64,000 bases of DNA from Bacteroidota bacterium (GTDB taxonomy: Bacteria; Bacteroidota; Bacteroidia; Bacteroidales; UBA12077), in NCBI GenBank assembly GCA_020444275.1, contig JAHLLG010000005.1:1-64000 (forward strand), written 5' to 3'. Positions 2,373 through 5,068 of this stretch are shown piece by piece (within the stretch, counting starts at the first letter, position 1; the number at the start of each line of letters is the position of its first letter). The notes under the pieces are model-generated. The model made no database searches. It was not told where the DNA came from and saw only the letters and a program-made list of their open reading frames with translations. Both the position numbers and the translations under genes were made by a program.

Positions 2373-3287
2373 TTAAAAATTATACAATCCTTCTACAGAT
2401 AAATATCTTTCACCAGTATCATATGCAAAAGTTAAAATTTTTGATCCTTGAGGTATTTCATCTAATTTCTGATAAATTGCAGCTAACGATGCTCCTGTTG
2501 AAATTCCAACAAATAATCCTTCTTCCTTTGCTACTTGCTGCGCAAAAGAAAATGCATCTTTATGATTTACCTGAATCGTTCCGTTCAAAATATCTATATT
2601 TAAATTCCCGGGAATAAAACCGGCTCCGATTCCCTGAATTTTGTGTGGTCCAGGATCACCTCCATTTATAACGGGCGAATTTGTTGGTTCTACAGCAAAT
2701 ACTTTCAATTTATTAAATTTGGATTTCAGTATTTCACCCACTCCGGTGATATGTCCGCCAGAACCAACACCCGTTATCATATAATCAAATCCTTCGGGAA
2801 AATCATTTAAGATTTCTTTGGCTGTTGTCTTTCGGTGAATATCGGGATTTGCCTTATTTTCAAACTGCAAAGGCATCCATGAGTTCGGAATCTCATTTAA
2901 AAGCTCTTCTGATTTTTGAATAGCACCTTTCATTCCCAGTTCTTTGGGTGTCAATACAAATTCTGCTCCGTAAGCTGCCATGATTTGTCTGCGCTCTTTT
3001 GACATCGATTCGGGCATAACAAGTATTAACCGGTAATTTTTTACGGCTGCCACAATAGCCAATCCAATACCCGTATTCCCTGATGTAGGTTCAATAATAG
3101 TGCTGCCAGATTTTATTATTCCGTTCTTTTCAGCATCTTCTATCATTGAAAGGGCAATTCGGTCTTTTATGCTAGCTCCGGGGTTGTTTTTTTCTAACTT
3201 GATCCATACTTCATGATCAGGAAACAAATTGCCTAATCTTAAATGTGTTGTATTTCCTATGGTTTGTAAAATATTTTCTGCTTTCAT
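2373..3287 (-). CDS. cysK: Cysteine synthase (O-acetylserine sulfhydrylase)
   Basis: A 304-aa PLP enzyme of fold type II. It makes cysteine from O-acetylserine and sulfide. The Schiff-base lysine is K41 in [10 protein letters not shown]; the PLP phosphate loop [10 protein letters not shown] and the glycine loop [10 protein letters not shown] are both present. It follows cysE with a 15-bp gap, so enzyme and substrate supply are co-transcribed, and the two proteins commonly form the cysteine synthase complex. CysK and CysM are hard to separate by eye; length and context favour a CysK-type enzyme. Expression is probably set by the attenuator at 4160-4292. Confidence 0.92.
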
Positions 3288-3302: not shown

Positions 3303-4142
3303 TTAAATCGTAAAATTAATCGGTTCGGAACTTCTCTCAATTCCATTTTTTACACGTATTTCACTTTTATTATAAACTGTTGAATATGGTTCCAGGCTTT
3401 GTGTTAGCCACACGTTTCCTCCAACCACGCTATCATGCCCTATGGTTGTATTACCACCCAGAATTGTAGTTCCCGAATAAATAATCACATGGTCTTCTAT
3501 AGTAGGATGTCTTTTGGTCTTTGCTTCTTCCTTTCGTACGTTTAATGCTCCCAGTGTTACTCCCTGGTAAATTTTAACATGATCGCCAATTATGGTGGTT
3601 TCTCCAATTACAATTCCAGTTCCGTGATCAATAAAAAAGGATTTACCAATCTGTGCACCCGGATTAATGTCTATTCCGGTATTGGTATGTGCATACTCCG
3701 TGAATAATCGTGGTAAAATCGGAATACCAAAATTGTACAAAGGATGTGCTAAACGATAGATCATAATGGCCTGAAAGCCGGGATAAGCCAAAACTATCTC
3801 TTCAATGGAGTGAGCTGCCGGATCAAACTCATAGATTGCTTTTGCATCCAACAATAATTGATCATAGATATCCGGAATTAAGTTAAAATAGTCATTCACT
3901 ATTTCATCTTCGTCTTGTTTTAAAAATGGTTTTAAAGGCATCAATAGTTCTATAAGTTGCAGCTTTAGATGTTCCCATTCAACATCAATTTTTCCCGGAT
4001 TTATAGTAACCTCTTTTCTAACCGGGAAAAGAAAATTAGATAACTGCTTCAAAAAATCCTGAGTCATTATCTTGGTAGGATAATTTCTGGACATTTGAGT
4101 GTTGTTATCGTACAACCTTTTTAAAAATTCTTTCATAGCCAT
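3303..4142 (-). CDS. cysE: Serine O-acetyltransferase
   Basis: A 279-aa acetyltransferase making O-acetylserine from serine and acetyl-CoA, the committed step of cysteine synthesis. The C-terminal half is a left-handed beta-helix of hexapeptide repeats (GAQIGKSFFIDHGTGIVIGE, then VKIYQGVTLGALNV), typical of SAT. The N-terminal 140 residues are the longer helical domain seen in EpsC-type SATs. The start is ATG at 4142; an in-frame ATG two codons later is an alternative. The start codon lies only about 20 nt after the U-run of the leader terminator, which ties this gene to the attenuator upstream. Confidence 0.93.
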   Translation of the reverse strand: MAMKEFLKRLYDNNTQMSRNYPTKIMTQDFLKQLSNFLFPVRKEVTINPGKIDVEWEHLKLQLIELLMPLKPFLKQDEDEIVNDYFNLIPDIYDQLLLDAKAIYEFDPAAHSIEEIVLAYPGFQAIMIYRLAHPLYNFGIPILPRLFTEYAHTNTGIDINPGAQIGKSFFIDHGTGIVIGETTIIGDHVKIYQGVTLGALNVRKEEAKTKRHPTIEDHVIIYSGTTILGGNTTIGHDSVVGGNVWLTQSLEPYSTVYNKSEIRVKNGIERSSEPINFTI

Positions 4143-4159
4143 ATCTAAATATTATTCAT

Positions 4160-4189
4160 AAAAAAAGCCTCTCCATAAAGGAAAGGCTT
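4160..4189 (-). terminator. Leader terminator (attenuator) before cysE-cysK
   Basis: On the minus strand, AAGCCTTTCC (4189-4180), loop TTTAT (4179-4175) and GGAGAGGCTT (4174-4165) form a 10-bp hairpin with two G-U pairs, followed by five U (4164-4160). It lies between the Cys-rich leader ORF and the cysE start. It would stop transcription before the structural genes unless the 5' arm is captured by the copy at 4238-4229. Confidence 0.85.
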
Positions 4190-4220
4190 CAATATATTTT
4201 TCGTTTAAATTATATCTCAA

Positions 4221-4292
4221 CTATATAAAAACCTCTCCTGCAGTGAAAAAATCACAACAACAACAGTTCTTATATAATTTAAAGTTTCTCAT
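4221..4292 (-). CDS. Cysteine-rich leader peptide of the cysE-cysK attenuator
   Basis: A 23-codon ORF, ATG at 4292-4290 and TAG at 4223-4221. It begins MRNFKLYKN, then has four consecutive TGT Cys codons (codons 10-13, 4265-4254), then DFFTAGEVFI. Codons 19-22 contain GGAGAGGTTT (4238-4229), a near-copy of the terminator's 3' arm. A ribosome stalled at the Cys codons would leave that segment free to pair with AAGCCTTTCC (4189-4180), preventing the terminator. A ribosome reaching the stop codon would cover it, letting the terminator form. The peptide itself is probably without function. No convincing promoter was found in the 50 nt between tcdA and this ORF, so the device may act on read-through from the upstream operon. 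Confidence 0.8.
   Translation of the reverse strand: MRNFKLYKNCCCCDFFTAGEVFI
4229..4238 (-). promoter_or_regulatory. Antiterminator arm inside the leader ORF
   Basis: GGAGAGGTTT repeats the terminator 3' arm GGAGAGGCTT with one C-to-T change. Both can pair over 10 bp with AAGCCTTTCC; here one G-C pair becomes G-U. The intervening loop would be 39 nt (4228-4190). Confidence 0.75.
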
Positions 4293-4342
4293 ACTGTTTG
4301 TAACAAATCTTGGTAAAAGTAGTTCAAATAATTTTAACTTAT

Positions 4343-5068
4343 TTATTCTTCATCAATTAAATCTCGAATAACCACCGAGGCGCAGAAACAGCCATAAATA
4401 GGAGGCATGTATGAAATGGTTCCCACGGTAGATTTTTTGTTTTCTCCCGGTTCGTCAACAACAACCGCTGTTTCATCTGCTTTATCTTCTGAGAATACCA
4501 CTTTAAAACCCTTGTTAATTCCCAGTTTTCGTAATCGTTTTCTTAATAAAAAACCCAATCGGCAATTGTACGATTTGGATATATCTTTAATGGTAACTTT
4601 TGTAGGATCAAGTCTGGCTCCTGACCCAAGAGAACTAACAATTTTTAAGCCTTTTTGAATACTATGATAGATTAGATAAACTTTGGGAGAAAGCGTATCA
4701 ATGGCATCCACTACATAATCGAATGGTTTGTCTAAAATCTCAATCATTCGATCGTCTTTGATGTACTCCTGAATAATATTGAGTTTCAAATTTGGGTTGA
4801 TATCCTTTAAACGTTGCCCGATTATTTCTGCCTTAGGTTTGTCCATAGTGCTATCCAATGCAGCAATTTGCCTGTTCTTATTCGAAATGTGCAAAAGATC
4901 TCCATCAACAATGGTTAGTTCTCCGATTCCTGCACGACAAAGATTTTCGGCAGCATATCCTCCAACACCTCCCAATCCCACAACTAATACGTGCGATTGA
5001 GCAAGTTTATTAACCTTTTTTTTACCTATCAACAATTCCGTTCTTTCCTGCCAGTTTTCACTACTCAT
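4343..5068 (-). CDS. tcdA: tRNA threonylcarbamoyladenosine dehydratase (TcdA/CsdL family)
   Basis: A 241-aa E1-like ThiF-fold protein that, in its family, ATP-dependently cyclizes t6A37 of tRNA to ct6A. The nucleotide-binding loop VLVVGLGGVGGYAAENLCRA is near residue 27, followed by VDGD and the N-x-N-R-Q stretch (ISNKNRQ) typical of TcdA. It is slightly shorter than the E. coli protein. It overlaps tatD by 8 bp, so the two are translationally coupled. MoeB/ThiF are alternatives, but no ThiS/MoaD partner is nearby and the overall pattern fits TcdA. tsaE, also of the t6A pathway, is elsewhere in this window. Confidence 0.88.
   Translation of the reverse strand: MSSENWQERTELLIGKKKVNKLAQSHVLVVGLGGVGGYAAENLCRAGIGELTIVDGDLLHISNKNRQIAALDSTMDKPKAEIIGQRLKDINPNLKLNIIQEYIKDDRMIEILDKPFDYVVDAIDTLSPKVYLIYHSIQKGLKIVSSLGSGARLDPTKVTIKDISKSYNCRLGFLLRKRLRKLGINKGFKVVFSEDKADETAVVVDEPGENKKSTVGTISYMPPIYGCFCASVVIRDLIDEE

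Follow-up and report, generated by a model that had tools for sequence, protein, structure and literature searches.

Ribosome-mediated attenuators are established for the trp, his, leu and pheA operons. The leader described here lies upstream of cysE-cysK in a 64,000-nt stretch of Bacteroidota DNA (the whole analyzed stretch is hereafter called the window). Like those systems it has repeated codons for the amino acid that the pathway makes, predicted alternative hairpins (1:2, 2:3 and 3:4) and an intrinsic terminator ahead of the first gene; it differs from them in the amino acid that would be sensed (cysteine), in its target (cysE-cysK) and in its host (Bacteroidota).

Cysteine codons in short leader ORFs have been described elsewhere. 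In Rhodobacterales, uORFC-8-2 upstream of cysS is a predicted Cys-codon attenuator that likewise places the Cys codons in the first of two stems and ends in a terminator, but it belongs to α-proteobacteria, precedes cysS and carries two tandem Cys codons, compared with four Cys codons ahead of cysE here (PMC8632094). Mycobacteria carry leaderless polycysteine short ORFs, cysteine-responsive to judge from the title of the original work (Canestrari 2020, cited in PMC13236596). These and the actinobacterial Cys leaders share with the present case a short ORF with a Cys run upstream of cysteine-synthesis genes (PMC13236596, PMC1262725); the mycobacterial ORFs, however, are called leaderless and are cited as translation attenuation, whereas a terminator and an antiterminator are predicted here (PMC13236596). 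Within the phylum, short ORFs or structured 5′ regions have been noted upstream of amino-acid biosynthesis operons in Flavobacterium psychrophilum (PMC9723704) and as leader-peptide clues in Bacteroides thetaiotaomicron (PMC7366714), and the available excerpts of both papers name no cysteine leader. Among the matches listed in the leader-peptide literature, whose coverage is incomplete, there was no Cys attenuator from Bacteroidota. The type of mechanism is thus already known, while its Cys version in Bacteroidota is apparently new, although an earlier description is possible. The locus would provide cysE-cysK of Bacteroidota with a specific candidate sensor of cysteine that follows a narrow spacing rule, and would bring sulfur assimilation under leader-peptide attenuation in a group without Shine-Dalgarno sequences, as stated for F. 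psychrophilum mRNAs (PMC9723704).

The cysE-cysK leader and its neighborhood

All features discussed below are on the minus strand. The serine O-acetyltransferase gene cysE (3303..4142) passes the EpsC-type model NF041874 and scores under the TIGR01172 cut-off; it is followed by cysK (2373..3287), encoding cysteine synthase A (TIGR01139). The upstream neighbor (4343..5068) encodes a TcdA-like protein of the ThiF family; L134 has such a gene 5′ of its leader too, as does L195 by eye. Between ThiF and cysE, a 23-codon ORF (4221..4292; MRNFKLYKNCCCCDFFTAGEVFI) runs from an ATG at 4292 to a TAG stop at 4223-4221, and its assignment draws on the sequence and on same-place leaders in relatives. Four TGT Cys codons (4254..4265) are the proposed site of ribosome stalling, and a Cys run is kept in all five same-genus genomes that have a matching cysE. 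The ORF is followed by an intrinsic terminator hairpin (segments 3 and 4; 4164..4190) with a predicted energy of −16.6 kcal/mol (z −4.7), whose arms AAGCCTTTCC (4189-4180) and GGAGAGGCTT (4174-4165) enclose TTTAT and lead into a T run (4160..4166) ending at 4160. An earlier reading of this DNA, made from the sequence only, had proposed a Cys leader-peptide attenuator with a 23-codon ORF, TGT codons at 4265-4254 and a 10-bp terminator at 4189-4165 plus U-run; all of these are present as described, at the positions given.

Leader-peptide control of cysE through translation initiation or Rho, as proposed for actinobacterial Cys leaders, is the most probable of the alternatives and still a very improbable one. 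Cys leaders without conserved intrinsic terminators have indeed been described in Actinobacteria (PMC1262725); the cysE leader, by comparison, has one, a strong hairpin with a T run that recurs in relatives.

Upstream of the ORF, TACTTTTA (4314..4321) is a tentative candidate for a −7 promoter element, picked by eye against the Bacteroidota −7 consensus TAnnTTTG; TAATTTAA in L005 and TACATTTG in L006 stand in matching context. The longer stretch TTTGAACTACTTTTACC (window 4330-4310), 5′ of the leader, is partly kept in both L005 and L006, and is perhaps a promoter.

In the 4.22-Mb genome that carries the window, TGTTGTTGTTGT has three occurrences, both strands counted, and runs of four TGY codons occur at 51 places; 21 of 22 inspected four-TGY loci (some overlapping) fall within an open frame of at least 80 codons, the sole exception being the cysE leader. 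Searched with an RNA model at E up to 5, the same genome gave 31 matches; the cysE leader site is among them, and the best 7 (L163-L169) of the 30 others are without a Cys leader that would mark a second copy. None of the families of Rfam 15, including T-box, SAM riboswitches and leaders, matched the window at its gathering threshold, Phe_leader, whose gathering score is 55, reaching 21.6 bits.

Alternative pairings and modelled ribosome states

In the predicted folds, the leader has the full 1:2, 2:3 and 3:4 layout, which is the plan of a classical attenuator, and as a whole it folds at z −5.3 relative to shuffles. The 1:2 hairpin (4219..4279; 61 nt, −22.2 kcal/mol, z −6.6) has a 15-bp outer stem (4279-4265 with 4233-4219); it encloses the Cys codons, which lie in the 5′ half, and sequesters segment 2 in its 3′ arm. 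Segment 2 (4221..4238; GGAGAGGTTTTTATATAG), the predicted 5′ arm of the antiterminator, begins 15 nt past the last Cys codon and contains GGAGAGGTTT (4238-4229) within the leader ORF. The sequence-only reading had the 5′ arm of the terminator pairing with 4238-4229 over 10 bp. It does so, and the pairing in fact extends to 16 bp: 11 bp between 4238-4228 and segment 3 (4180..4190, thus also the 3′ arm of the antiterminator), plus 5 bp between 4226-4222 and a predicted extension of segment 3 (4192..4196), with an energy of −15.1 kcal/mol (z −2.7). The predicted antiterminator and the terminator are mutually exclusive, and the 5′ arm of the former lies 3′ of the proposed stall codons. The 1:2 hairpin, which competes with the antiterminator, is the part that the earlier reading lacked; as a block to the antiterminator it is predicted in the window and has mixed support among relatives.

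Very probably, then, the element is a ribosome-mediated transcription attenuator in which the supply of Cys-tRNA sets read-through into cysE-cysK. RNA polymerase would make the leader RNA with a ribosome translating the 23-codon peptide at the same time. Under a shortage of Cys-tRNA, this ribosome would stall on the four TGT codons and open the 1:2 hairpin, leaving segment 2 free from 4238 onwards; segment 2 would then pair with segment 3 (4190-4180), no terminator would form and cysE-cysK would be transcribed. When Cys-tRNA is plentiful, the ribosome would reach the stop codon at 4223 and either cover segment 2 or, after release, allow the 1:2 hairpin to re-form; with segment 2 unavailable, the 3:4 terminator would end transcription at about 4160, some 17 nt 5′ of the cysE ATG. 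Sequence and comparison establish the ORF with its Cys run, the terminator, the two competing pairings, the gene context and the return of these parts in relatives; translation of the leader, stalling on its Cys codons and read-through that tracks cysteine supply are what we infer from this arrangement.

The spacing of these parts was compared across a set of leaders, 34 of which were submitted and 31 analyzed, as L137 (a repeat of L062), L241 and L258 were dropped because the finder missed their terminators; L139, the site of L017 and containing only CC, was added to the set by hand. Over the 31 leaders, the first base of the stop codon lies 27.6 ± 3.8 nt (range 21-37) from the terminator and the last Cys codon 64.1 ± 8.2 nt, the former spacing being the tighter (Levene P 0.006, F 4.7). 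Placement is thus stricter for the stop codon than for the Cys run, in keeping with a mechanism in which the position of the ribosome matters. Beyond the stop codon, up to 12 nt are covered by a ribosome (PMC4833913).

Ribosome states were represented by equilibrium partition-function models in which segment 4 is not yet made, the measure being the share of segment 3 that pairs with the segment-2 region. In the window, modelled 2:3 pairing comes to 0.98 if the ribosome is placed on the first Cys codon, 0.01 if it is placed at the stop codon and 0.78 if the RNA is naked; the corresponding medians over the 31 leaders are 0.73, 0.35 and 0.61, and 27 of them have more pairing in the stalled state than in the stop state, by a margin above 0.05. 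The proposal that a ribosome stalled on the Cys codons frees 4238-4229 agrees with the model of the window. Its counterpart, masking of segment 2 by a ribosome at the stop codon, agrees with the modelled value for the window but is not general: modelled 2:3 pairing remains at least 0.50 in 14/31 leaders, reaching 0.86 in L193, and ribosome transit or re-forming of 1:2 would need to contribute at those loci.

When spacers were shuffled, mean 2:3 pairing in the stalled state was 0.47, compared with 0.72 for the actual sequences, with a combined P of 2e-12 that is uncorrected and overstates independence, since the leader sequences are related. Individually, 13/31 leaders reach P ≤ 0.05 in this comparison, and L220 and L238 fall below their shuffles; in the duplex comparison, 22/31 reach P ≤ 0.05. 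Leader folds average z −1.7, with 13/31 at z −2 or lower and several near 0.

Recurrence in relatives and at sulfur genes

A matching cysE is found in 5 of 20 same-genus genomes, and in all five the leader and terminator occupy the same position. In a sixth (G011, L195), a ThiF-like gene and the leader are present, and the contig ends about 70 nt past the match, before cysE. Counting the other same-genus genomes (G001-G019), a matching cysE occurs in only 4/19; several same-genus genomes are incomplete, so that loss and assembly gap are not separable there. By eye, the leader peptides of the genus have diverged along almost their whole length, apart from the Cys run. What is kept across relatives is a GGRRGG stretch inside the ORF and a CCYTTCC...GGRRGG terminator, so the co-occurrence of Cys run, in-ORF copy and terminator proposed as a check on the earlier reading is indeed observed. 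In minimum free energy folds of nine leaders, a comparable hairpin surrounds the Cys codons, by eye built from differing sequences, which suggests that the pairing is kept rather than the sequence.

Genomes at the level of order, family, phylum and class were searched with two covariance models (R1 and R2). The leaders thus found mostly precede sulfur genes: cysE-cysK (L138, L141, L142, L235, L247 and L265), cysK (L145, L157, L203 and L208), sulfite reductase (L232, L233, L234, L245, L253 and L258) and metY (L220 and L244). The target of L241 is a distant cysK-like gene (28% identity), and that of L146 an OsmC-family gene. Targets are less clear for L204, L238 and L250, the last with an aldo/keto reductase gene between the leader and a sulfite reductase fragment. 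Four of these leaders (L203, L204, L208 and L220) come from genomes listed within the phylum but outside the class. A Cys motif is present in 34 of the 99 model-fetched loci that were scanned, out of 106 (7 short ones were skipped; L196-L202 and L261-L263 were outside the list). Many inspected matches are plain 3′ terminators, some scoring above 50 bits (L140, 57 bits; L143, 50 bits), so that model tallies are not attenuator counts. The Cys motif in L150 was judged a chance frame and discounted. By motif, L152, L153 and L200 resemble the ends of TPP riboswitches.

Since Cys leaders served to build the RNA models, whose matches lean towards Cys runs, gene-anchored scans were added in which loci were found by protein similarity, not by RNA model. 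A fixed rule was applied, requiring an ORF 10-45 codons long with 3 or more Cys in 5 residues and a terminator 15-45 nt past the stop, and the reverse strands and dinucleotide shuffles of the same upstream regions served as controls. At cysE, 8/109 loci pass (L092 having too little upstream sequence), compared with 0/109 reverse strands and 0/545 shuffles. At sulfite reductase 9/30 loci pass and at cysK 1/30, compared with 0/60 reverse strands and 0/300 shuffles for the two together; pooled over all scans, the controls give 0/169 and 0/845. The sulfite reductase query was taken from a model-found locus, and two of the nine passing loci had already been found by the models and are not independent (L278, from which the query was taken, and L300, which is the same site as L253). 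One further cysE case, L017, has a clear leader by eye, misses the rule and is left out of the 8/109; with it, the element is patchy, at about 9/109 cysE loci. Among the scannable named cysE loci, 1/79 (L062) has the element.

According to the earlier reading, relatives that keep the hairpin and lose the Cys run would speak against the attenuator. At cysE this pattern is not seen: where any short ORF is followed by a terminator, the leader is Cys-rich in 8/9 loci, and the ninth (L024) is probably a chance match within coding sequence. In the same set, the only residues reaching 3 in 5 are Cys (7 loci) and Asn (2 loci), in a count whose scanned region lies inside the gene for 28 late-matching loci. 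At sulfite reductase the picture is less clean, as 14/30 loci have a short ORF and terminator and 9 satisfy the Cys rule, leaving 5/14 that fail it. L286, L298, L299 and L306, each with a terminator and a possible Cys or Met leader, stand outside the count, and at L290 a terminator is present and no Cys run was seen. As far as its comparative predictions could be examined, they came out in favor of a Cys leader-peptide attenuator, which is thus supported at the level of sequence.

Recurrence also bears on the idea of a functional Cys-rich micropeptide, metal- or thiol-binding for example, with the hairpin as its own terminator. CCCC motifs can bind metal, and one leader (L146) lies between CusB-like and OsmC-family genes. 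By eye, however, the peptides share little beyond the Cys run even within the genus, the pairing and spacing are what recur, and the context is mostly sulfur amino-acid synthesis; moreover, Met stands beside Cys in leaders of metY and sulfite reductase, which is more in line with codon sensing than with peptide chemistry. We consider this explanation even less probable than control by translation initiation or Rho. The least credible alternative is an ordinary terminator of the upstream ThiF gene beside a chance Cys-rich ORF, for although the hairpin sits between two same-strand genes and many model matches inspected at other places are plain 3′ terminators, the Cys-run ORF is accompanied by the terminator in 5/5 same-genus genomes, the combination recurs at other sulfur genes and is absent from shuffles and reverse strands, and the stop-to-terminator distance is narrow.

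Cys/Met-mixed and tandem leaders

Beyond the 30 sulfite reductase loci, seven further matches were scanned with a slightly looser rule, and 5/7 have Cys or Cys/Met leaders. Tandem leader-terminator pairs are found at seven sulfite reductase loci (L278, L279, L287, L291, L368, L369 and L373, the last with masked letters in its second leader), and these tandem leaders carry Cys and often Met codons. At metY, 4/29 loci have a leader by the looser rule, compared with 0/29 reverse strands and 0/145 shuffles; two of the four (L359 and L361) lie more than 300 nt upstream of metY. In the genome of the window itself, there is no sulfite reductase match at E 1e-60, and metY has no leader of this type by the looser rule.

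The mean number of non-start Met residues lying no more than 4 residues from the Cys cluster is 0.5 for cysE/cysK (21 leaders), 2.5 for sulfite reductase (24 leaders) and 3.6 for metY (7 leaders; Mann-Whitney P 4e-8), a count that takes in leaders from the looser rule, which itself uses Met. The difference stays when only leaders found by the Cys-only rule are compared (8 vs 13 leaders, P 0.002). Sulfide feeds both Cys and Met, while cysE-cysK feeds Cys first, and the excess of Met at sulfite reductase and metY over cysE/cysK fits this pathway logic.

With moderate confidence, we propose a Bacteroidota sulfur amino-acid regulon controlled by leader-peptide attenuation over more than one class, with pure Cys sensors on cysE-cysK and cysK, mixed Cys/Met sensors, often in tandem, on sulfite reductase, and Met/Cys sensors on metY. 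If so, shortage of either product of sulfide fixation would open the shared supply step. Most novel in the finding are the Cys/Met-mixed and tandem leaders, which would show, in nature, signals from two amino acids being integrated by a single RNA device.

Several single loci deserve mention in their own right. L146 (G279:C1:2798917-2799040, minus strand) has a Cys-rich leader and terminator 5′ of an OsmC-family gene and after a gene that, by eye, resembles CusB. L238 (G962:C246:11851-11967) has seven clustered Cys (CCVCCCCAC) 5′ of a 329-aa ORF, in which no Pfam match was found at 1e-5. The Cys leader and terminator of L204 (G455:C13:27674-27780) are followed, as first sizeable ORF, by a carbonic anhydrase (Pfam Pro_CA), which was unexpected. 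L206 (G578:C302:6699-6805, minus strand) was discounted as a Cys leader: another of its frames reads MNQKNIIVISIAAVVIYNSQETAF, the downstream gene is, by eye, like a branched-chain aminotransferase, and the locus is a candidate attenuator for branched-chain amino acids that uses the same platform. Similarly, L160 (G120:C23:1627-1747, minus strand) has a Met-run leader (MMMAMMM) and terminator 5′ of a metY-like gene that is 54% identical to the metY of L244, and is a candidate methionine attenuator of the same build.
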